NCBI RefSeq assembly: GCF_029961765.1
Contig: NZ_CP124681.1
Location: forward strand, 1,612,001 to 1,676,000
Length of the DNA: 64,000 bases
Origin: Nocardioides sp. QY071
GTDB lineage: Bacteria > Actinomycetota > Actinomycetes > Propionibacteriales > Nocardioidaceae
Direction: 5' to 3'
The notes under the pieces: generated by a model
What the model saw: only the letters and a program-made list of their open reading frames with translations
Databases searched by the model: none
Told to the model about the DNA's origin: nothing
Shown: positions 7,624-36,538 of the stretch, in pieces
Layout of the letters: every line of letters starts with the position of its first letter
Numbering within the stretch: position 1 is the stretch's first letter
Position numbers and translations under genes: made by a program

Positions 7624-8235
7624 TCACTCGTCGCCGAGGCCGCGCGCGTGCAGCGCGTCCCCGGTGGCCCGGGCGTGCGCGACGACGCGGATCACGAGCG
7701 GCGTGAGATAGGCGCGAGGGTTCCGTTCGAGTCCCCGCGCCCGCGCGGCGTCGCGGGTCTCGCCGGCGATGGCGAGGGTGAGCGGGATGCCGCGGATCAT
7801 CAGCGAGAACGCGAGCGCGACCAGCTCCGGGTTGACCCCGAAGCGGCGGAACGGCCCCAGCCAGCGGGTGATCGCATCGACCATCCGCTCGACGGAGGTG
7901 GTCGTGGTGAACACGGTCGCGAGCAGCAGGAGTGCCACCAGGGCGCCCACGACGACGAAGGCGTGCTCGGCACCCCTCTGCCAGGTCTGGTACGCCGCCA
8001 GCAGGGTCATCGCGACCACGACGCCACGCAGCGCGCGCACCGCCCGGCCCAGCCGGACGCCGGCGACCACGCAGCACAGCGCCGCCAGCACGAGCAGCCC
8101 GGCCGTCGTCGGGACACCCCGGAACGCCACCGCGACCACGCTGAGCACCAGCAGGCCGAGCAGCTTCGCGCCGACCGGCAGCCGGTGGAAGACGGACCTG
8201 CCCGGCTGGTAGTCGCCGAGCGGGCCGGCGGTCAC
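7624..8235 (-). CDS. bioN: Energy-coupling factor transporter T component, biotin type (BioN)
   Basis: Membrane scaffold (EcfT) that joins the ATPase to the biotin-binding S component. About 203 residues with several hydrophobic helices in the first two thirds. The cytoplasmic coupling helices carry the Ala-Arg-Gly motifs typical of EcfT (ARARGLER and HARGLG). The GTG start (8233-8235) overlaps the bioM stop as GTGA. It is the last gene of bioY-bioM-bioN and ends just inside the bioB upstream region. Confidence 0.9.
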
Positions 8236-8933
8236 CCGGCGCTCGCGCGGTAGTGGGCGACGACCTCGGCGGGCGCACCGTCCGCGACGACGGTGCCGTC
8301 CTCGACCAGCAGCGCCCGGTCGCAGTGCAGCGCCAGGTCGAGGTCGTGGGTCGCGAGCACCAGCTGCTGCGGGAGGCCGAACAGCAGGTCGCCGATCAGC
8401 CGGGCGTTGCGCAGGTCGAGCAGCGTGGTCGGCTCGTCGGCGACCAGGATCGCGGGGTCGGTGGCGAGCACGCCGGCCAGCGCGAGCAGCTGCCGCTGGC
8501 CGCCGGAGAGGGTGTGCACACTGCGGTCGGCCAGCTCCTCGAGCCCGTACGACGCCAGCACCGCCCGCGCGGCTACGGCCCGCTCCTCGCGCCCGCGCAC
8601 CTGGTGGCGCAACGACAGCGCGACGTCCTCCACGACGGTCGGCATGACCAGCTGGGCGCTGGGGTCGGTGAACACGAACCCGACCCGGCGTCGCACCTCC
8701 CGGCCCTTCTTCGCGACATCGAGCCCGTCGACGGTGACGCGGCCGGAGGTGGGCTCGACCAGTCCGTTGACCAGCCGGGCGAGGGTCGACTTGCCCGAGC
8801 CGTTGGGGCCGATCAGCGCGATCCGCTGCTCGGTGAGGTCGAGCGAGGTCTCCCGCACGACGGTGACCTCGGGGACCGGTCCTCCGGGCGTCGCGGCCCG
8901 GACCACGACCCGGTCGAGCTCGACCCGGCTCAC
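8232..8933 (-). CDS. bioM: Biotin ECF transporter ATPase (BioM)
   Basis: ABC-type ATPase that powers biotin uptake. Walker [10 protein letters not shown], signature LSGGQRQ, Walker [13 protein letters not shown] and the switch histidine in LATHDLD are all intact. About 233 residues. The start is the GTG at 8931-8933, which overlaps the bioY TGA (GTGA); the frame is open further upstream only because bioY is GC-rich. Translationally coupled on both sides. Confidence 0.93.
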
Positions 8934-26788: not shown

Positions 26789-27684
26789 CGGCGGACCTCC
26801 TGCTGGGAGACGAGGGTGCGGGCGGTGCGGGCGGCGGTCTCGCGGACCCGGGGGAGGCGGGAGCCGGCCATGAAGTTGGGGCCCATCGCCTCGAGGTCGG
26901 CGGCGGTGGGCTCGATGCGGAGGACCCGGGCGCCGGCGGCGCGCAGCAGTGCGACCTCGCGGTCGACGCGGCCGGTCATCGGCCGGCGCAGCAGCCGCTC
27001 GGCGCGGGTCAGGCCGCGGGCGGGAGCTCCGCCACGGCTGGACATCGGGGCCACGACGACCACCTCGTCGATGCTGCCGTCCTGCACGTGGGGGAGCAGC
27101 AGGTCGGCGGAGGTGGGGGAGACGGCGCCGCCGTCGAGGAAGGAGCGGTCGCCGACCCGGACCGGCGGGAACCAGCCCGGGATCGCCCACGAGGCCGCGA
27201 TCGCCTGTCCCAGTGCGGCCTTCGGCGCATCCGGGTGTCCGAAGGCGACCCGCTCGCCGGTGCGTACGTCGGCCGCGACCAGCCAGGTGCGCGGGTGCTC
27301 GACCCACCGGGTGCCGGGCGCGGCCAGCCGCTCGCCCAGGTCGAGGAGCCACTGCGGGTCGCCGCCGCCGCGGGGCAGCAGCCCGGCCAGGCCGGCCAGC
27401 AGGTCCGCACGTCCGCTCAGCGCGGCCCGGGTCAGGCCGAGTCCCGGCAGTCCCGGCCGGGGGAGCAGCGGCAGCGCGGGCGGCGGGTCGCCGCCGTCGT
27501 CCTGCAGGGCGGCGGCGGACATCCCGGCGCCGAGGCGGGCGACGAGCTCGGCACCGGCCGACGTACCGACGAGGACGTCGGCGGCCCTCGGGTCCCAGCC
27601 CTGTCGTTCCAGCTCGGCGAGCACGGCGGCGGTCCAGGCATAGCCCAGCGTGCCGCCGCATCCGATGACCAGTGCGCGCCCCAT
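26785..27684 (-). CDS. Patatin-like phospholipase/esterase
   Basis: Ser-Asp dyad hydrolase, 299 residues. The glycine-rich oxyanion loop is GCGGTLGYAW, the nucleophile Ser lies in GTSAG, and the Asp is in LDGGAVSPTSA (DGG motif). It is the first gene of the operon, with the divergent TetR gene 86 bases away. It may cleave the ester made by the monooxygenase or release a lipid substrate; that is inference. Confidence 0.87.
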   Translation of the reverse strand: MGRALVIGCGGTLGYAWTAAVLAELERQGWDPRAADVLVGTSAGAELVARLGAGMSAAALQDDGGDPPPALPLLPRPGLPGLGLTRAALSGRADLLAGLAGLLPRGGGDPQWLLDLGERLAAPGTRWVEHPRTWLVAADVRTGERVAFGHPDAPKAALGQAIAASWAIPGWFPPVRVGDRSFLDGGAVSPTSADLLLPHVQDGSIDEVVVVAPMSSRGGAPARGLTRAERLLRRPMTGRVDREVALLRAAGARVLRIEPTAADLEAMGPNFMAGSRLPRVRETAARTARTLVSQQEVRR

Positions 27685-27770
27685 GCGACCACCTCAGAAC
27701 CACAAACGGAATGGAATGTCAGTTTCGGAACGTATCGTCAGATCTGGGCGATTGCAATAGGCTCAGCACC

Positions 27771-28400
27771 ATGACGGCGACCACGGAGGGGCTCTCGCGG
27801 CTGGAGCGGCGCAAGGCCGAGACCCGGCGCGAGATCATCGAAGCCGCCTTCACCTGCTTCGCCGAGCAGGGCTACCACGCCACCGGGATCGCCGACATCG
27901 CCGCGCGACTGGGCATCGGGCACGGCACCTTCTACCGCTACTTCGAGAACAAGCGGGACATCGTCGAGCACGTCATCGACGACCTGATCGGCCGGATCGT
28001 GGAGGCGCTCGGCGCCGAGAACGCGCCGGACGCGGTGAGCACGCTGGAGGACTACCGCGCCCAGACCGCGCGGATCGGCACCGCGCTCGCGCAGATCTTC
28101 AGCGAGGACCCGCGGGTGGCCCAGCTGCTGCTGTCGGCGGCCGGCATCGACGACGCCATGCGGGAGCGGATGCTCGACCTGTTCGCGATGACCACGCCGC
28201 TCACCGCGGCCTACCTCGAGCACGGCGTCCGGCTCGGCTACCTGCGCGCGGACCTCGACGTCGAGCCGACCGCGCAGTCGATCAACGGCATGATCCTCGG
28301 CTCGGTGCTGGTCGGCATGCGCGACCCCGCGCCCGCGCAGCAGGAACGACTCAGCGCCGCGATCCGCGCCGTGATGTACGACGGGATCGCGGCGCGCTGA
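27771..28400 (+). CDS. TetR-family regulator of the patatin-SDR-BVMO operon
   Basis: About 209 residues; the helix-turn-helix is GIADIAARLGIGHGTFYRYFENKRDIV. The ATG at 27771 follows a TAGGCT -10-like box by seven bases with no RBS, so the transcript is probably leaderless. The 86-base gap to patatin holds AT-richer sequence with GGAAT/GGAAC half-sites, but no clean palindrome. It probably represses the divergent operon. An inverted repeat follows the stop. Confidence 0.85.
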   Translation: MTATTEGLSRLERRKAETRREIIEAAFTCFAEQGYHATGIADIAARLGIGHGTFYRYFENKRDIVEHVIDDLIGRIVEALGAENAPDAVSTLEDYRAQTARIGTALAQIFSEDPRVAQLLLSAAGIDDAMRERMLDLFAMTTPLTAAYLEHGVRLGYLRADLDVEPTAQSINGMILGSVLVGMRDPAPAQQERLSAAIRAVMYDGIAAR

Positions 28401-28407
28401 GTTGAGC

Positions 28408-28466
28408 GCACCCCCTACGAATTGGTCGTCATCTCGGCAGATCTGCGACCAATTCGTAGGGGGTGC
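28408..28466. repeat. Inverted repeat with perfect 21-bp arms
   Basis: 28408-28428 and 28446-28466 are exact reverse complements around 17 bases. Arms begin GCACCCCCTACGAATTGG. There is no T-run, so this may be a REP-like palindrome or a terminator-like stem between the TetR gene and the target-gene remnant. Confidence 0.85.
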
Positions 28467-28504
28467 GGGGCAGGGCCGGCGGCGAAGCCCGGCATGAGAG
28501 CGCG

Positions 28505-28777
28505 CTACTGAGCGACGGCGAGCAGTCGCTCGCACTCCTCGACCAGCCGCGCCCGCAACGGCGCACCCCGCTCGCTGAACCCGCGCTGCGCCTCGACGTA
28601 CGCCGCCTTTCCCTCGGCCGTCTCGATCCGCACCGGCTCGAAGCCCAGGTCCGCGAGGTCGTACGGCGCCGCGCGCATGTCCAGCACCCGGATGTCCCAG
28701 GCGAGCTCGAAGCAGTCGGCCACCAGGTCGGAGCACACCAACGGGGAGAGCCGGAAGGCGTGCTTGTAGAGGTCCAT
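28505..28777 (-). pseudogene. Displaced native 3' end of the integration target gene
   Basis: About 91 codons from MDLYKHAFRLSP to ECERLLAVAQ and a TAG at 28505-28507. They match the C-terminus of the intact gene at 35634-36506 (shared runs such as [31 protein letters not shown]), but without its first two thirds. Homologues usually continue MDLYK-x-A, like this fragment and unlike the current intact gene, so this is the original C-terminus cut off by the element. Confidence 0.85.
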
Positions 28778-28794
28778 CAACACTAGGATTGCAG
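28766..28794. other. Left attachment site (attL)
   Basis: The core GTAGAGGTCCAT (28766-28777) joins chromosomal sequence on the left to element sequence on the right; TTGCAG at 28789-28794 is the right arm of the reconstructed attP. Confidence 0.75.
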
Positions 28795-28816
28795 GCATCT
28801 AGTGGAAGGTGCCGCG

Positions 28817-30277
28817 GTGAAGGTCTCGCTCTATGTCCGACTCTCGGAGGACGCGCATGGCAACGAGCTCGGTGTCGAGCGCCAGATCAATGAGTGCCGA
28901 GAGTACGCCGAGACTCGTGGATGGTCGGTGGGCGAGGTCTTCATCGACAACGACCTCTCGGCGACCACTGGCGTCGAGCGGCCGGAGTTCGAGAGGTTGC
29001 TGGCGAGCCAGCCGGAGTCGATCCTGTGCTGGCACCTCGACCGCCTGCTTCGTGTCTCGAGCGATCTGGAACGTGTCATCGCGCTGAACGTCAACGTCTT
29101 CTCGAAGGAGGCTGGCTGGTTCGACCTCAGCACACCGGCTGGCCGTGCCGTCGCCAGAACGGTCACCGCTTGGAGCACCTACGAGGGTGAGCAGAAGGCG
29201 GCTCGACAGAAGGCCGCTCACCGGCAGCGTGTCGACGCTGGCGGAATGACCGCGACCGGCAGGCCGTGGTGGCCGACCAGGCCGCTCGGCTTCAACCTCG
29301 ATGGCACCCATCACGACGAGGAAGCACCGGCTCTTCGAGAGGTCTACGACCACATCCTCCGAGGGGGCACGCTCGCAGGATCGGTTCGCTACTTGGACGA
29401 ACTCGGCATCGTCACTCAGCGAAGTCTTGACCTCGACGCCAAGGCAGCAGCGGAGGAAGGTCGAGAGCCGGTCGGGAGGCCCTGGCGGGCTTCCAGTCTT
29501 CGCCCGGTACTCCTCAACGCTCGCAATGCCGGCATCTACGTCTACAACGGCGAGGAGATTGGTGAAGCGGCTTGGGAGCCGATCGTCACGGAGGAGGTGT
29601 TCCGGGCCGTCGTACGGATCGTGACCAATCCGGCCAGGAGGCTCAATGGCGAGGCCTCGGGTGGCTTCGGGCACCGGACCAACCTGCTGACCGGACTTGC
29701 GTCCTGCTCGCTCTGCGGCCACACCGTGCGTGCAGCGTGGCGGCGAAATGCTGCGGGGGAGCGGGCGTACAAGGTCTACCAGTGCGGCGGATGCAAGAAG
29801 GTAACGCTGCGAGCGGAATGGGCCGACTCAGTCGTCACCCGCGAAGTGATCGAACGCGTGGAGCAATGGCAGGACGAACTCCCCAAGCCGGACCAGGCAC
29901 CGATCGATGTAGCCAGCCTGCACACTCAGTTGAAGGCACTCGACGCGAGCAAGCAGGAACTCGCAGAGGACCGCGCTCTTGGGTTGATCGACCGCGAACA
30001 ACTCCGACTTGGTACCGCTCGTGCAAACGAGGAGATCGCCAAGATCACGGACCAACTGGCCGAGCACGGCACGGGTGACGATGGGCCACTGTTCTGGGAC
30101 CCGGACACCCTGTGGCAGTGGACGGGCGACGAGGCGGGGGAGGGGTACGACGTGGAGAGATTGACGCCGATCATCAAGCGCGTCTGCAGGTCGATCGTTC
30201 TCACCGGGCCCGGAAAGGGCCGAAAAGACTTGCTGTACGGCCAGCATCTGGTGATCGAGTTCCACGAACCGACCTAG
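28817..30277 (+). CDS. Large serine recombinase (site-specific integrase)
   Basis: About 486 residues. The N-terminal resolvase domain begins VSLYVRLSED with catalytic Ser10; conserved arginines follow in HLDRLLR. Next come the recombinase domain (RPWRASSLRPVLLNARNAGIYVY) and a zinc-ribbon (CSLCGHTV then CGGCKK) with a coiled-coil region after it. The GTG at 28817 has GGAAGG seven bases upstream; the earlier start at 28802 has none. It sits 40 bases inside the left attachment site, as integrases usually do. No excisionase-like recombination directionality factor is recognised. Confidence 0.95.
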   Translation: MKVSLYVRLSEDAHGNELGVERQINECREYAETRGWSVGEVFIDNDLSATTGVERPEFERLLASQPESILCWHLDRLLRVSSDLERVIALNVNVFSKEAGWFDLSTPAGRAVARTVTAWSTYEGEQKAARQKAAHRQRVDAGGMTATGRPWWPTRPLGFNLDGTHHDEEAPALREVYDHILRGGTLAGSVRYLDELGIVTQRSLDLDAKAAAEEGREPVGRPWRASSLRPVLLNARNAGIYVYNGEEIGEAAWEPIVTEEVFRAVVRIVTNPARRLNGEASGGFGHRTNLLTGLASCSLCGHTVRAAWRRNAAGERAYKVYQCGGCKKVTLRAEWADSVVTREVIERVEQWQDELPKPDQAPIDVASLHTQLKALDASKQELAEDRALGLIDREQLRLGTARANEEIAKITDQLAEHGTGDDGPLFWDPDTLWQWTGDEAGEGYDVERLTPIIKRVCRSIVLTGPGKGRKDLLYGQHLVIEFHEPT

Positions 30278-30424: not shown

Positions 30425-31366
30425 GTGACGACGACGCTGCGGCTGGGTTTGGGCTACCTGCGGTCAGACATGCAGCCGGGAGTGGACGTCTCGCTGATCT
30501 GGGTTCACGACTTCACCTTGGAGCAGCACCAAGAGTTCGAACAGCACCTCAAGACGATCAAAGAAGCGTCGCGGCGCCCGATGCTGGAGATCGTGGAGGT
30601 CGCATCAGCGACCCTCGCGGCAGCCCTTGATCGGTTCGCAGATGACCGGAAATCCGCGGTCGCTGCCAAGCGGTCGGTCGAGCTTGATCAGGAAGCGAGG
30701 ATTGCCGCATTCGCAACCGTGAATGCCGCCTACGCGTTCCAGGAACATGCTAAGGCTACGGCCATCCGAGCGGGCGGAGAACGACTGTGGAACGAGGTAA
30801 ACGCCGTCTTCGCCAACGTGTATCACGAGAACGTCTGCTACTTGGTCGCATACAAACTGAGGCAACTCTTCGTTCACGACGCGATCGGGGCTGTCCGGGT
30901 GAATAGTCAATCCAAGCGCGAAGCGGACGGCGTCGTGGATTCTGTCGACTGCTATGTCGATCGCTCATACCTCAAAGCGAGGCTGACCGGGCGTGCTGGG
31001 CAGTGGGTGATCGATCGTGAGGCCGATCTGAGCGTCGCTGATCTGATGGGAGGGACGCTTGCGGGGATGGAGGAAGTGTTTCGCCGTACGCGCGCGATGC
31101 TCTTTCCTGAACTGACCGAGTCGCTGGCGTTCTTCGACCCGTGGCGACCCGAGCTGCTCAACGCGGAGTATGCGCTGTGTCTCACTCGCGTCACGCTCAC
31201 TGACAGCGGAGAGATCGGCCCAATGAAGTTCAAGCAGGTGCGTCCAGACGACCTGCTGAACGCCGGCATGGCGCCACTTACGGCACAGGAGTTGGCATCA
31301 TCCTCTGAGTTGGCGCTGAACCGTATCTGCAGGGCAGCAGACGGAGCTCTTGACGAGGAATCCTAG
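30425..31366 (+). CDS. Hypothetical protein of the integrated element
   Basis: About 313 residues, GTG start with no obvious RBS. It contains a long helical segment rich in Ala and charged residues (about 45-100) and then a mixed part with KLRQLFVHDAIGAVRVNS and LLNAEYALCLTRVTL. No catalytic or DNA-binding motif is recognised and no membrane segment is seen. It follows the recombinase by 147 bases in the same direction. Base use is AT-richer than in flanking chromosome. Function unknown. Confidence 0.65.
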   Translation: MTTTLRLGLGYLRSDMQPGVDVSLIWVHDFTLEQHQEFEQHLKTIKEASRRPMLEIVEVASATLAAALDRFADDRKSAVAAKRSVELDQEARIAAFATVNAAYAFQEHAKATAIRAGGERLWNEVNAVFANVYHENVCYLVAYKLRQLFVHDAIGAVRVNSQSKREADGVVDSVDCYVDRSYLKARLTGRAGQWVIDREADLSVADLMGGTLAGMEEVFRRTRAMLFPELTESLAFFDPWRPELLNAEYALCLTRVTLTDSGEIGPMKFKQVRPDDLLNAGMAPLTAQELASSSELALNRICRAADGALDEES

Positions 31367-31533: not shown

Positions 31534-31833
31534 CTAGCCGTCCCGACGCTCAGCCGCTCGTTGACGAGCCTGCAGGCGCGAAAGACTCCCGCTCATGCGG
31601 TCCTGCTCAGAGCCAGCCAGGCCGGCCTCATCGGCATCCCATCCGACGTACTCGGCCAGGAGACGACGCACCACGTCGCTTCGGGTCTCCCCGTTGGCTT
31701 CAGCTACCTCGGCAACGCGATCCCAGAGCGCGTCTGAGACGCGGATGCCTTTGACCTTCGTGGAGCCTCGGTCGGTGTTCCTCGGTGCTGCCATAGGTGC
31801 ATCTTCTCGCGTGGCGAGTGCCGAGCGCGTCAC
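31534..31833 (-). CDS. Ribbon-helix-helix-like DNA-binding protein
   Basis: About 99 residues. The middle, STKVKGIRVSDALWDRVAEV then TRSDVVRRLLAEYV, has the beta-strand plus two-helix pattern of the CopG/RHH fold. The GTG start (31831-31833) overlaps the stop of the gene upstream as GTGA; an internal ATG at MAAPRNTDRG is an alternative. It may control the element's minus-strand operon or the opposing genes. Confidence 0.7.
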   Translation of the reverse strand: MTRSALATREDAPMAAPRNTDRGSTKVKGIRVSDALWDRVAEVAEANGETRSDVVRRLLAEYVGWDADEAGLAGSEQDRMSGSLSRLQARQRAAERRDG

Positions 31834-32174
31834 GCCAGCCCTTTCATGAGGTCGAGCAAGGCGAGCTTGTACCTGAACTCGTCCTCATGGCTGATCGGCT
31901 CGTTGTCCTCGTGCGCCGGATAGAGACCGTGCGCCACACTTCCGTTAGGCAGGTAGCCGATCTCGACAGGAAGATCCCATTCGTCGGCGTAGAACGTCCA
32001 TCCGTCGGCGATTAGTCGCCGAGTGATGCTGTCCCAGTCGGCAGCGTGCAGACCATCACCACCACCGAGCGTGATGTCGGTGGACGGGTCAGGGGTGACC
32101 AACACTCCTGCACCGCGAAGCGCGTCGAGCACCGCCACGTGTGCTCCGCTCTCGATCCGCACCGGCTGAGTCAT
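31830..32174 (-). CDS. Hypothetical small protein of the integrated element
   Basis: About 114 residues from the ATG at 32172-32174, preceded by GAGGGA. Features: AVLDALRGAGVLVTPDPS, WDSITRRLIADGWTFYADEWDLPVEIGYLPNG. Acidic and aromatic-rich; no known domain. It is translationally coupled to the RHH gene (GTGA). A two-gene operon with a DNA-binding protein recalls regulatory or toxin-antitoxin pairs, but no toxin motif is visible. Confidence 0.6.
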   Translation of the reverse strand: MTQPVRIESGAHVAVLDALRGAGVLVTPDPSTDITLGGGDGLHAADWDSITRRLIADGWTFYADEWDLPVEIGYLPNGSVAHGLYPAHEDNEPISHEDEFRYKLALLDLMKGLA

Positions 32175-32280
32175 GTCTTCGTCCCTCTCATTCGCAATGA
32201 GAACAGCGTCTCTTGCCGTTCTTGTACCTGCCACGGGCTCGCACCGTGGCGCCTGCTTGTCAGGCTTCTCAGATTGGCCG

Positions 32281-32341
32281 CTGTGGTGGGTGTGACCGAT
32301 CCCAGGTCTCAATGGTCCCCGGCCTGTCACACCCACCACAG
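32281..32341. repeat. 15-bp inverted repeat between the two minus-strand element genes
   Basis: CTGTGGTGGGTGTGA (32281-32295) and its exact complement (32327-32341) surround 31 bases. It lies in the 195-base gap between genes and could be a terminator, an operator or a replication/packaging site. There is no T-run. Confidence 0.8.
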
Positions 32342-32369: not shown

Positions 32370-32660
32370 TTAGGCAGTCAGGAGCTCACAGAGCGAGTCG
32401 AGCCAGACGAGCAGCGCGCCACGGTCGTCAGGGTGCTTGATCTCCCTGCGGATCTCGTCGGCGAGCTCGTCTGTGTCGAACGGTCGGCCGCGGCTGAGCG
32501 CCGTGATGTTCGAGCACGAACCGTCGTACCAGTGCCACCAACTCGCAATGGTGCGAGCGCTCTGGTCAGAGATCGGGTCTCCCGTCTCTGCCGAGCTCCA
32601 TACGTCGTCGCACGTTTCTTCGCTCGTGCCGAGCCTGTAGGTACTGACGTGCGCATACAT
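32370..32660 (-). CDS. Hypothetical small protein of the integrated element
   Basis: About 96 residues from the ATG at 32658-32660 (GAGAGG about nine bases upstream). Trp-rich centre (ASWWHWYDGSCS) and an acidic C-terminal half (DTDELADEIRREIKHPDD). No known motif. Adjacent small frames upstream on this strand are possible but unsupported. Confidence 0.5.
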   Translation of the reverse strand: MYAHVSTYRLGTSEETCDDVWSSAETGDPISDQSARTIASWWHWYDGSCSNITALSRGRPFDTDELADEIRREIKHPDDRGALLVWLDSLCELLTA

Positions 32661-32816
32661 GTCAGGCGACCTCTCGCTCAAAGTGATGCACGGCAGCGGC
32701 ACGGAGTCGGCCCGAGGGCGAGAGCGGATCAGGTCCAAACCGCTCAATCTTGAAGAGTCCGAGCGTGCTCGTCTTCGTCGTCACCATCACGAAGTCGGCG
32801 GTTGCGGTCGGCGTGA

Positions 32817-33101
32817 AGCTCCCGCTACGAGCAGATCGGCCTGTGCTCCGTTTGCGCTGCCCAGGCGGCCTACGGCCACCAACACGGCTTCGCGGTCGTC
32901 CGCCGGCCTTGCTTCGACTGCGCTTCGATCCTCGCCCGCCTGCCGAAGGAAGAGCATGGTTGCTGGCGCTCAATGTCGGTCGGCAGCCGAGCCGCCGTAG
33001 AGCGCGTGAAGGCAGGCCTGACAGTGAGCCGGACCGAGACTCCCGCCAACGGTCACACCTACCTCAGCGGCCCGTCTAGGGGCATTCTGGAGGCCGCATG
33101 A
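32817..33101 (+). CDS. Zinc-ribbon protein reading frame without a canonical start
   Basis: After an in-frame TGA at 32814 the frame reads SSRYEQIGLCSVCAAQAAY then, 14 residues later, CFDCASILARL. The paired CxxC motifs and phrase AAYGHQ-GF recall small zinc-ribbon proteins common on actinobacterial mobile elements. The stop overlaps the next gene as ATGA, the same coupling used by the next pair, which supports real translation. No ATG, GTG or TTG precedes the first CxxC; CTG at 32841, or a one-base frameshift in a longer gene, would explain it. Confidence 0.6.
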   Translation, partial: SSRYEQIGLCSVCAAQAAYGHQHGFAVVRRPCFDCASILARLPKEEHGCWRSMSVGSRAAVERVKAGLTVSRTETPANGHTYLSGPSRGILEAA

Positions 33102-33379
33102 CCGGCGCGACTCTCGTTGGCATGCTCGTCCACCACGGCATAGAGCCGGCCAAGGCCATACGCCTAGTGAATCTCATTGCAGAAATGGAATCGAGCACCG
33201 ACTCCCGGCTCGTTACCGACCATCTGCTGTCAACGGTCGATGCACTTGTTAAGAGCGGGGTGCCCCGGTACGACGTATTTGCCGCGCTTCTCTGTCATCC
33301 CAGCGCCCACGACACAGCACAACAGCGCTACCGCGCCATTGGCGCGAAGACCCTCAAAGAGATGGAGCGCACACCATGA
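33098..33379 (+). CDS. Hypothetical small helical protein of the integrated element
   Basis: 93 residues, ATG at 33098 with GGAGG four bases upstream. Mostly helical (VGMLVHHGIEPAKAIRLVNLIAEME); no known domain. ATGA overlaps join it to the zinc-ribbon frame upstream and the TerS-like gene downstream, so the three are one coupled unit. Confidence 0.75.
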   Translation: MTGATLVGMLVHHGIEPAKAIRLVNLIAEMESSTDSRLVTDHLLSTVDALVKSGVPRYDVFAALLCHPSAHDTAQQRYRAIGAKTLKEMERTP

Positions 33380-33807
33380 GTGGCCCCATGCCCAACCGCT
33401 CCGGAGAACTCACCCCAGCCGCCGAGCGTCAGCGCAAGTCGCGAGGCACCACCGCCGTTCGCGGTAAGTCGAACCCGGCCACGATCCCCGACCCGGACCC
33501 CGACTGGTGCCACGCGGCAAGGCTCATGTGGGACTCTGCCTGCGAGAGCGGAGGAGCCGCCTTCTACGAGTCCAGCGACTACGCGACCCTCTGGCTTCTC
33601 TGCGACCAGATCGACTACCTCTATCGGACCAACAAGGACGGCGAGGCCAAGCCACGCTCACCAGAGATGTTCAAGGCCGTTCTCACCGGCCTCGGCAACC
33701 TGCTCGTCTCCGAAGGAGACCGACGCAAACTCCACATTGAGCTCGAGAAGGCCCCCGACGACAACCCGGACTTCCTCAACGACCTGAACGAACTGCTCGA
33801 CAACTGA
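33376..33807 (+). CDS. Putative phage terminase small subunit (TerS-like)
   Basis: 143 residues. The layout matches small terminases of actinophages: basic N-terminal tail, PDPDPDW, a tryptophan-containing helix, CESGGAAFYESSDYATLWLL, then LLVSEGDRRKLHIELEK. TerS selects DNA for packaging. The assignment rests on recalled family resemblance, not a search. No large terminase or structural gene accompanies it. This combination is characteristic of phage-inducible islands that redirect a helper phage's packaging. It ends the coupled trio and is followed by a terminator. Confidence 0.7.
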   Translation: MSGPMPNRSGELTPAAERQRKSRGTTAVRGKSNPATIPDPDPDWCHAARLMWDSACESGGAAFYESSDYATLWLLCDQIDYLYRTNKDGEAKPRSPEMFKAVLTGLGNLLVSEGDRRKLHIELEKAPDDNPDFLNDLNELLDN

Positions 33808-33820
33808 GCAGGCGGAAGCC

Positions 33821-33868
33821 AGCCCCTCCCCGCTTCCAGCACCTTGGAAGTCGGTGAGGGGCTCTTTT
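33821..33868 (+). terminator. Terminator after the TerS-like gene
   Basis: AGCCCCTC (33821-33828) pairs with GAGGGGCT (33856-33863); GCTTCCA/TTGGAAG-like bases add an inner stem, and TTTT follows at 33865-33868. Confidence 0.75.
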
Positions 33869-33924
33869 CTGCTTTTGCAGGCATTCCCCGGTTTGCGTCG
33901 GCAGTTGGTCGTAGCCTCCGGAAC

Positions 33925-35490
33925 ATGGCTGAGGAGACCTGGCACGCAGCACGCCTGATCCCCACCTCAGGGATCTCGGGAGCAGAAGAGCAGGAGCGAC
34001 GAGCGACTTCCGCGTTCCTTGCTGTGCTCACAGCAGTGAAGGAGTTCGGCCGCGCCGTCCTCGGGCCGCTCGGAGCACCGGCAGGCAACGTGGAGACCTA
34101 CATCGAGGTCCCTTTCAAACTGGGCGAGAAGGACTGGCGACCTGATGGGCTCATCCGGGTATCACGCGGATCGAAGAGTTGGGTCGCGCTCGTAGAGGTC
34201 AAGACCGGCAAGAACTCGCTGGCGACTGAGCAGTTGGAGGCCTATCTCGACATTGCTCGGGAGCAGGGCTTCGACGCGGTCGTCACGATCTCCAACGAGA
34301 TCCCACCGAGCGCTGACCAACACCCGACCCACGTCGACAAGCGGAAGCTCCGCAAAATCGCCCTGTGCCACCTGTCGTGGGCCGACGTACTCAGCACAGC
34401 CGTGCTCCAGAAGGAGCACCGTGGAGTGTCCGACCCCGACCAGGCTTGGATTCTCGGCGAGCTGATCCGCTACCTGGAGCACCCGAAGTCGGGAGCGCTG
34501 GAGTTCGACGACATGGGATCCGATTGGGTCGGCGTACGCGAGGCCGTCAGCGCAGGCACTCTGCGCGCCACCGACAAGACGATCGCCGATGTGGTCGCCC
34601 GCTTCGACGCCCTTCTTCGTTACGCGTCACTGCACCTAGGCCGGCGACTCGGAACGGACGTGACCTTGCAGTTGAACCGCAAGGAGCGAGCGGAGCCAGC
34701 GCTCCGAGCGCAGGCACTACGAGCACTGCTCGTGGACACCGGCACGCTGAGCGGAAGCATCCGCATCCCCGACACTGTTGCCGACATCAAGATCACCGCC
34801 GACCTGCGGTCGAGCAAGGTCACCTGCGAGCTCGTCGTGGATGCTCCGAAGACTGGCCGCCCGACGACCCGGGTCAACTGGCTCGCACGGCAGTTGAAGG
34901 ATGCCCCCGGCTCGCTCAGGATCGAAGCCTCGGCGCTCAACCAGCGCGGGCCAGGCGCCGCTGAACTGCTCAGCGTCGTCAGAGAGGACCCGGCCCTGCT
35001 CGTGTCCGACCCCACTAGGGAGTTGCGTTCCTTCACGGTCGCGCAGAGCGTTTCGATGGGCACCAAGCGCGGCCGCGGCCGCGGGGCATTCATCGACTCC
35101 GTCATCGACGCTGTGGACAACTTCTACGAGACAGTCGTTCAGAACATCAAGGCATGGTCTGCCGCTCCTCCCAAGTTCCGCGAAGAGGTCGAGCCTCCCA
35201 GGGAGGAGCGCTCGGCCTTGTCTTCGACGGCGCTCTCCTCACAGGACGGCGCTGAGCCTGTCGAGCGACCCGCCCCGACCGTTGTTGAGGAACGGAAGGT
35301 CGGAGATGGCGACGCGTCCGAGCGTCCGGACGATGAGGCCGACTCGTTCTCCGACGATGCTGTCGACCCGGCTCCGCCCCCCGAAGTTGCCGACACCACC
35401 GAATCGAGCGTTGCAGTCGATCGGGAGGACGAGCCGACGCCCTTCGCTCCAGTCAGGATCTACTCGATGCCTGTCTCCGAAGACTCCTGA
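33925..35490 (+). CDS. PD-(D/E)XK nuclease-like protein with acidic disordered tail
   Basis: About 521 residues from the ATG at 33925. Residues 58-110 show a restriction-endonuclease-like core: Glu61, Asp74 in WRPDG, EVK at 91-93, then QLEAY at 103-107, which fits the order D-x(n)-ExK-Q. The middle (about 170-390) is unassigned, and residues beyond 420 are Pro/Glu/Asp-rich and probably disordered. The gene stands alone between terminators at the right end of the element, the usual place for accessory or defence cargo. Function (anti-phage, housekeeping for the element, or other) is unproven. Confidence 0.75.
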   Translation: MAEETWHAARLIPTSGISGAEEQERRATSAFLAVLTAVKEFGRAVLGPLGAPAGNVETYIEVPFKLGEKDWRPDGLIRVSRGSKSWVALVEVKTGKNSLATEQLEAYLDIAREQGFDAVVTISNEIPPSADQHPTHVDKRKLRKIALCHLSWADVLSTAVLQKEHRGVSDPDQAWILGELIRYLEHPKSGALEFDDMGSDWVGVREAVSAGTLRATDKTIADVVARFDALLRYASLHLGRRLGTDVTLQLNRKERAEPALRAQALRALLVDTGTLSGSIRIPDTVADIKITADLRSSKVTCELVVDAPKTGRPTTRVNWLARQLKDAPGSLRIEASALNQRGPGAAELLSVVREDPALLVSDPTRELRSFTVAQSVSMGTKRGRGRGAFIDSVIDAVDNFYETVVQNIKAWSAAPPKFREEVEPPREERSALSSTALSSQDGAEPVERPAPTVVEERKVGDGDASERPDDEADSFSDDAVDPAPPPEVADTTESSVAVDREDEPTPFAPVRIYSMPVSEDS

Positions 35491-35575
35491 CGGACCGATT
35501 CACCGTGAATCGCCTGTGGTGGGCGACGAGCCATGAACCGTCACAAGTCCCCGTGCTGTGGTGGCCGGGGACACG

Positions 35576-35611
35576 CGAACCCCTCCTGGAACGTATGCCG
35601 GGAGGGGTTCG
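35576..35611. terminator. Hairpin between the nuclease-like gene and the target gene
   Basis: CGAACCCCTCC (35576-35586) and its exact complement (35601-35611) enclose 14 bases. It lies between two convergent genes and may serve both; the T-content after it is weak. Confidence 0.7.
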
Positions 35612-35633
35612 TGCTTCGCGGTTGCGATCCGGC

Positions 35634-36506
35634 TCAGTTCCTGACGCTGAGCAGGCGCTCGCACTCTTCGATGAGCCGCTGACGGATGGGCGCGCCTCGC
35701 TCTGCGAACATGCGTTGAGCCTCGGCGTACTCCCGCTTACCCTCCGGAGTTTCAATCCGGATGGGTGACCATTCCTCGCCGCCGAGGTCCAGGCCGGACA
35801 GGTCATACGGTGCTGCCTGCATGTCCATGACCCTGATGTCCCAAGCGAGTTCGAAGGCGTCGGCAACGAGGTCGGACGAGATCATCGGAGACAACCTGAC
35901 TGCAACCTTGCCGTAGAGGTCCATGCCGGCGTGCAGACAGCCGGGCTGCTCGAAGTCGGGGCGGTCGTCGCGGCCCGGGACGAGCGTGTTCAGCGGGCGG
36001 GCCGGGGGAGTGAAGAAGCGGTAGGCGTCGAAGTGCGAGCACGCGATCCGGTGGCCCTCGACGACCTCGTCGGTGCCGGCGGGACCGAGGCGGAGCGGCC
36101 AGTCGGCGTGCCGGGTCTCGTCCTCGGTGAGGCGGTAGACCATGGCCCACTCGTGCAGGCCGAAGCAGCCGAAGTGCGGGGCGCGGCCGGCGGTGGCGGT
36201 GAGCAGCGCGTGAATCGAGGCGACGAGGGGCCGCTGCGCGATGACGTACGACGAAGCGACGCTCACGCCGCCCGCGACCGCGTCGTACCCCTTGAGTCCC
36301 TCCAGCCCGGACCCCGGCGGCGCGACCACCCCGAAGCCCGGGTGCCAGCGGCGCAGCTGGGCGGGCCGGTAGGAGTAGTAGGTGAAGAGGAAGTCGAAGA
36401 CCGGGTGCTTCACCGCCGCCCCGCGGCGGGCGAGGTGCGGGGCGACGTAGCGATCGATGCGGGCGGCGTGGTCCGCAGCCCGCCGACGCCATTCCTCCGC
36501 ATTCAC
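35634..36506 (-). CDS. Integration target gene with element-supplied 3' end; 3-methyladenine-DNA-glycosylase-annotated family
   Basis: About 290 residues. Homologues in actinobacteria are commonly labelled 3-methyladenine DNA glycosylase, though I see no proof of that activity. Conserved landmarks: [45 protein letters not shown]. The part before the attachment core (35913-35924) is native; everything after it comes from the element and reads GKVAVRLSP where the native remnant reads KHAFRLSP. The GTG at 36504-36506 fits a leaderless start after TACGCT; a TTG at 36515 is the alternative. Confidence 0.85.
35900..35924. other. Right attachment site (attR)
   Basis: Core GTAGAGGTCCAT at 35913-35924, with CTGCAA (35900-35905) as the left arm of the reconstructed attP. 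Confidence 0.75.
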
Positions 36507-36538
36507 GACGACCAAGCGTAGGTCGATAGGCTCACCGG

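Follow-up and report, generated by a model that had tools for sequence, protein, structure and literature searches.

A PD-(D/E)XK nuclease with a chaperone-like domain as plausible anti-phage cargo of a satellite-like element in Nocardioides

A lone gene at the end of a small mobile element raises the question of what its product does, and for whom. In the window, by which we mean the whole 64,000-nucleotide stretch of DNA analysed here, from the soil bacterium Nocardioides sp. QY071, a preliminary description had singled out such a gene as a possible anti-phage nuclease. We followed up this proposal by examining the protein, the element that carries it and the family to which it belongs.

The gene and its nuclease core

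The gene and the parts of its product are located as follows.

33925..35490 (+): nuclease and YbjN/T3SC-like gene, 521 aa plus stop
33982..34422 (+): PD-(D/E)XK nuclease core, residues 20-166 (AlphaFold2 fold, structural matches, residue invariance)
34144-34146 (+): predicted catalytic D74, invariant in homologues
34195-34197 (+): predicted catalytic E91, invariant in homologues
34201-34203 (+): predicted catalytic K93, invariant in homologues
34231-34233 (+): Q103, invariant in homologues
34243-34245 (+): Y107, invariant in homologues
34507..35160 (+): YbjN/type III secretion chaperone-like domain, residues ~195-412 (fold comparison)
35161..35487 (+): low-confidence acidic tail, residues 413-521 (sequence, AlphaFold2 confidence)

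The coordinates, plus strand and length of 521 aa first given for the gene were borne out on checking the open reading frame, and the start ATG at 33925 agrees with the conserved N-terminus of the homologues, M-x-EE-x-WHxARLIPTSGI. A longer frame opening with TTG at 33844 (548 aa) found no support among homologues and was rejected. The nearest homologue, from Nocardioides insulae, is 83% identical, and the values of dS (1.22) and dN (0.12) between the two genes indicate that the protein is under purifying selection.

The AlphaFold2 model of the whole protein, built from 76 sequences (pLDDT 84, pTM 0.82), displays the alpha-beta-beta-beta-alpha-beta core of the PD-(D/E)XK superfamily (H20-37, E55-60, E75-81, E84-92, H101-114, E118-123), with the D and the (D/E)xK on the sheet. 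The preliminary description had suggested predicting the structure of residues 50-125 as a check, and the nuclease core thus obtained spans residues 20-166. It had also fitted D74, E91-x-K93 and Q103 to a restriction-endonuclease-like site, and these residues were correctly chosen: all four are invariant in 43/43 homologues of the first searches and in 76/76 rows of the genome scan. Y107 is likewise invariant (76/76 aligned homologues) and forms with Q103 a QxxxY motif, as in RecB/Cas4-type nucleases. Such invariance of the five residues implies that the motif did not arise by chance.

Structural comparison of residues ~11-185 retrieved PD-(D/E)XK nucleases as nearly all top matches, among them AF1548 (Z 9.5), FokI (8.0) and AspBHI (7.3), followed by Card1/Can2, McrC, MspJI, VRR_NUC and Hjc, and Foldseek agreed on the nuclease identity of the core. 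The layout D...ExK...QxxxY of the active site is common to the protein and to PD-(D/E)XK nucleases of the VRR_NUC kind or with a RecB/Cas4-like motif. FokI, AspBHI, MspJI, McrC and AF1548 are alike in core fold, but their C-terminal domains are unlike the one found here. Since its active site is intact and under selection, we predict with high confidence that the protein is a working nuclease.

Unlike the PD-(D/E)XK restriction nucleases, the protein has no above-threshold match to a sequence family: searches of Pfam, NCBIfam, PHROGs, PADLOC and PDB sequences returned nothing above threshold, the VRR_NUC profile of Pfam giving a subthreshold match (E 0.038). The preliminary description could not name a defence system, and 0/5027 PADLOC models match at E up to 1. 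Shedu pairs a PD-(D/E)XK nuclease, in a single gene, with another domain that is presumably regulatory. Our protein resembles Shedu and other single-gene nuclease defences in this combination; it differs from SduA, however, in matching neither the Pfam DUF4263 profile nor the corresponding PADLOC model.

The chaperone-like domain and the acidic tail

The middle of the chain, left unassigned in the preliminary description, can now be given a YbjN/T3SC-like fold over residues 195-412, a domain which that description had missed. Modelled alone, it reaches a pLDDT of 92.5, and its top Foldseek match is E. coli YbjN (probability 0.97). By structural comparison its closest relatives are YbjN (Z 7.4), Shigella Spa15 (7.2) and Erwinia AmyR (6.9). 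Of the 26 best-scoring rows (Z 4.8-7.4), about 21 belong to the YbjN family or to the type III secretion chaperones, the remainder being mostly uncharacterised proteins, and clearly unrelated folds appear from Z 4.1.

The fold is that of the TY-chaperones (YbjN, AmyR, Spa15, Deinococcus DR1245, TY-Chap1-3), from which the present domain differs in being larger (about 220 aa with additions) and joined to a nuclease. It has the fold of this superfamily but no Pfam match to the YbjN or type III secretion chaperone families at E up to 1. In view of the middling Z values and of the missing profile match to those families, we call the domain only chaperone-like: the modelled structure resembles a chaperone, a resemblance that is not proof of descent.

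The acidic tail of the preliminary description was confirmed, with 29 D/E against 9 K/R in residues 418-521. It is variable but holds a short motif conserved in the family, LxSTALSSQD, around residues 432-441.

The satellite-like element and its target gene

The gene is the last of an element of ~7.15 kb, next to the att site, and the following features define the element and its surroundings.

28505..28798 (-): original 3' part of the target gene, now displaced (sequence comparison)
28766..28777 (no strand): 12-bp core GTAGAGGTCCAT, left copy, marking the element end (repeat identity)
28802..30277 (+): large serine integrase (profile matches)
30425..31366 (+): 313-aa ORF (ORF call)
31534..31833 (-): ribbon-helix-helix (Arc/CopG-like) regulator (profile matches)
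31830..32339 (-): 169-aa ORF, common to a sibling element (56% identity)
32370..32747 (-): 125-aa ORF (ORF call)
33098..33379 (+): 93-aa ORF overlapping terS (ORF call)
33376..33807 (+): terminase small subunit, terS (Terminase_7, Pfam E 1.7e-25)
~33808..33878 (+): terminator-like hairpin with U-run between terS and the nuclease gene (folding, z -3.0)
~35573..35614 (+): strong terminator-like hairpin without U-run, 3' of the nuclease gene (folding, z -5.4)
35634..36515 (-): target gene; the element supplies its 3' end, 35634-~35912 (sequence comparison)
35913..35924 (no strand): right copy of the 12-bp core GTAGAGGTCCAT (repeat identity)

Mobility is evident from a conspecific genome without the element, in which window positions 27500-28777 (99.5% identity) are joined directly to the stretch from 35643 onward (93% identity). 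On integration, the element replaced the 3' end of its target gene with a diverged one and left the original end stranded at 28505-28798. With an integrase, a regulator and terS, and with no capsid, portal or large terminase gene recognised in profile searches, this discrete mobile unit has the gene content of a PICI-like satellite. It shares with terS-bearing PICI-like satellites the integrase, the small regulator, the absence of capsid genes and the cargo beside att, but differs in its serine integrase, its replacement target 3' end, its size of only ~7.15 kb and the lack of a known helper. Gene content, 12-bp core and conspecific empty site together support the earlier placement of the gene at the cargo end of a satellite-like element. 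The same description had set the gene alone between terminators, and folding indeed gives the two flanking hairpins, both of which were missed by a simple pattern scan for terminators.

Among the smaller frames, the 313-aa ORF was not found in any of the 292 other genomes of the order searched, and the 125-aa and 93-aa ORFs have no family match in profile searches. An open frame at ~32817-33098 (+), in which a start codon was not found, encodes a CxxC plus another pair of Cys residues (GLCSVCAAQAAYGHQHGF...); its match in the sibling element is a small gene located upstream of terS. Outside the element, a long near-perfect inverted repeat at 28409-28466 (GCACCCCCTACGAATTGGTCG...CGACCAATTCGTAGGGGGTGC) lies between convergent genes and is likely a bidirectional terminator.

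Two related elements are informative. In another Nocardioides (G014), a prophage of ~48 kb occupies the same target gene (G014:C2 ~767-815 kb; L192, L208, L193) and carries portal, capsid, terminase and tape-measure genes; its integrase and TerS are 49% and 43% identical to those of the window element. The prophage TerS gene directly precedes those of the terminase large subunit, portal, protease and capsid, and this position of the homologue just upstream of TerL supports our terS call. A search of the viral collection with the TerS of the window element found no relative. PHROG 226, labelled 'minor tail protein', matches both 33376-33807 and L208:837-1295; Pfam and the place before TerL both identify the matching proteins as terminase small subunits, and the label looks wrong.

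The sibling satellite-like element, in a further Nocardioides (G797; L211:2311-9566), has in common terS (45% identical), the ribbon-helix-helix gene and the 169-aa ORF. It lacks the nuclease and carries instead ArdA, a Hypoth_Ymh protein and a GIY-YIG nuclease, from which it follows that the non-core genes are of conflict type and exchangeable. Judging from this comparison of sequences, the nuclease gene appears to occupy an exchangeable cargo position, and it is supported as a self-contained cargo cassette of the element.

Three other genomes (L189, L190, L191) carry the target 3' end two to three times in tandem, in a span of about 1.5 kb. In Nocardioides the target gene has the look of an integration hotspot, its tandem 3' ends resembling scars of past insertions. 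A decayed copy of the nuclease gene, with the Q103 region deleted, was seen in one genome (G195; L188:5315-6445 and 8119-8400), some 1.7 kb beyond another 3' end displaced from this target gene; it is perhaps the remnant of a related element.

The family and its possible functions

Homologues are patchily distributed. They occur in 58/391 genomes of the order-level survey (57/354 good genomes) and in 19/396 of the phylum-level survey (18/301 good genomes), and scanning 84,980 species genomes yielded at least 277 confirmed loci, the best 80 of which, as listed, are all in Actinomycetota. Viral contigs and phage records gave no homologue. Most copies are chromosomal and stand alone, without a conserved neighbour except for synteny at the genus level, e.g. 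in Kribbella. Chromosomal copies lie among ordinary metabolic genes, and in many chromosomes the protein is intact and nearly full-length. More than 100 other homologous loci have no related terS and no related serine integrase next to the gene, and we rejected the notion of a satellite-specific family. The family tree largely follows taxonomy, with family- and genus-level clades, and the window copy falls in a well-supported, taxonomically mixed clade of 12.

A sister branch, which had escaped the preliminary description, carries an N-terminal TerD domain (E 6e-47) and is found on Rhodococcus and Streptomyces plasmids and in several genomes. The C-terminal ~410 aa of these proteins (e.g. WP_159929459.1) are homologous to the window module with 38-48% identity, whereas the TerD domain is absent from the window protein by Pfam, which does not place it in the Ter stress system. 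Of the three Rhodococcus plasmids examined, two have ThiF, Mov34 and DUF6602 genes in the vicinity of the TerD-fused form (L031:14297-18148, L033:4798-8655), which together resemble a ubiquitin-like conflict operon, and one of the two has a SIR2 gene there as well; the third has none of these nearby. Further plasmids revealed no constant partner, with a RES NAD phosphorylase near two TerD-fused forms and ThiF/Mov34 near two.

We consider it plausible, at even confidence, that the gene product is an anti-phage nuclease. On a satellite, use against competing phages is the likeliest one because anti-phage systems are known as satellite cargo (PMC9122126), and because TY-chaperones co-occur with restriction-endonuclease-fold effectors in predicted antiviral systems (PMC9503650). 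The place of the gene, single between terminators and last before the att site, also favours this reading, as do the invariant catalytic residues, the conflict-type genes of the sibling element and the ThiF/Mov34/DUF6602 and SIR2 genes near TerD-fused forms. Against it count the lack of any PADLOC match, of clear defence-gene enrichment and of a viral or phage copy, as well as the largely taxonomy-following tree, which is less usual for defence genes. The PADLOC tallies, in which each family is matched by at most 3 proteins and many redundant kinase models occur, give 92 families over 139 near proteins and 46 over 107 far proteins, no clear excess beside the homologues relative to further genes of the same loci; an association with defence islands was dropped on this ground. 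Of the original proposal of an anti-phage cargo, the nuclease and the satellite cargo are supported; the anti-phage role stays a plausible proposal, as no defence family matches, the neighbours show no clear enrichment and the family is mostly chromosomal, not confined to satellites or phages.

As an anti-phage system, the protein would combine a metal-dependent PD-(D/E)XK nuclease (D74, E91, K93, QxxxY) with the chaperone-like domain and a flexible acidic tail. Most likely it would be made from the integrated element and held quiet until a competing phage infects, when the chaperone-like domain would bind a phage or stress-induced protein. This binding would free the nuclease, and DNA cutting would block the intruder or stop the cell. 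By analogy with its structural relatives, the probable ligand of the chaperone-like domain is a protein or peptide, and the domain may gate nuclease activity, a part that TerD may play in the sister branch. TerD has been interpreted as a sensor within Ter systems, for which a role against superinfecting phages is proposed (PMC7824862; PMC3710099).

The main rival, which we judge possible although rather unlikely, is an actinobacterial stress-response or DNA-repair nuclease related to TerD and acquired by the satellite as a host-fitness gene. Its chaperone-like domain would bind a host repair protein, in the way that the YbjN-like DR1245 of Deinococcus binds the SSB-like DdrB (PMC3575483). The largely vertical tree, the Kribbella synteny, the TerD-fused sisters and the chromosomal copies amid metabolic genes all agree with such a role. 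It fits less well with the patchiness of the family in both surveys, with the absence of a conserved repair or ter gene adjoining its members, or with a GC3 below that of genes further away in 60/73 loci, and the satellite here has no other recognisable host-fitness gene.

It is improbable that the nuclease serves the life cycle of the satellite or interferes with a helper, e.g. by introducing cuts or nicks into helper DNA and so tilting packaging towards the satellite. In its favour, the gene follows terS at a distance of 117 bp and shares its strand, and neither replication nor capsid genes can be recognised in the element; yet a terminator-like hairpin separates the two genes, the nuclease is missing from the sibling element, whose terS belongs to the same family, and the many loci without a related terS or serine integrase argue against such a function. 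Least probable is a toxic or addiction-like effector, which would kill the cell or bring it to arrest and whose antidote would be either its own chaperone-like domain or a factor of the host: restriction-endonuclease-fold effectors do have chaperone-like partners in predicted conflict systems (PMC9503650), but no partner gene is conserved beside the family and the protein persists intact in many chromosomes.

Extending the anti-phage reading to the whole family, we offer only tentatively that these proteins are unnamed, phylum-wide actinobacterial single-gene immune nucleases, in which the T3SC-like domain would sense a phage protein and the TerD branch a nucleotide-like signal, one branch being satellite-borne.

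A family of at least 277 genomic copies, with no match in Pfam (above threshold), NCBIfam or PADLOC, now has an assigned fold and active site, as well as a second domain and a sister architecture, so that its function can be put to a direct test. New here are the chaperone-like domain, the TerD-fused sister form and the finding that the family is not specific to satellites. Should these proteins turn out to be stress or repair nucleases, the present results would offer a biochemical handle on an unexplained conserved gene. Should they be immune, they would join a chaperone-fold sensor to a nuclease and tie the Ter world to the warfare between phages and satellites.
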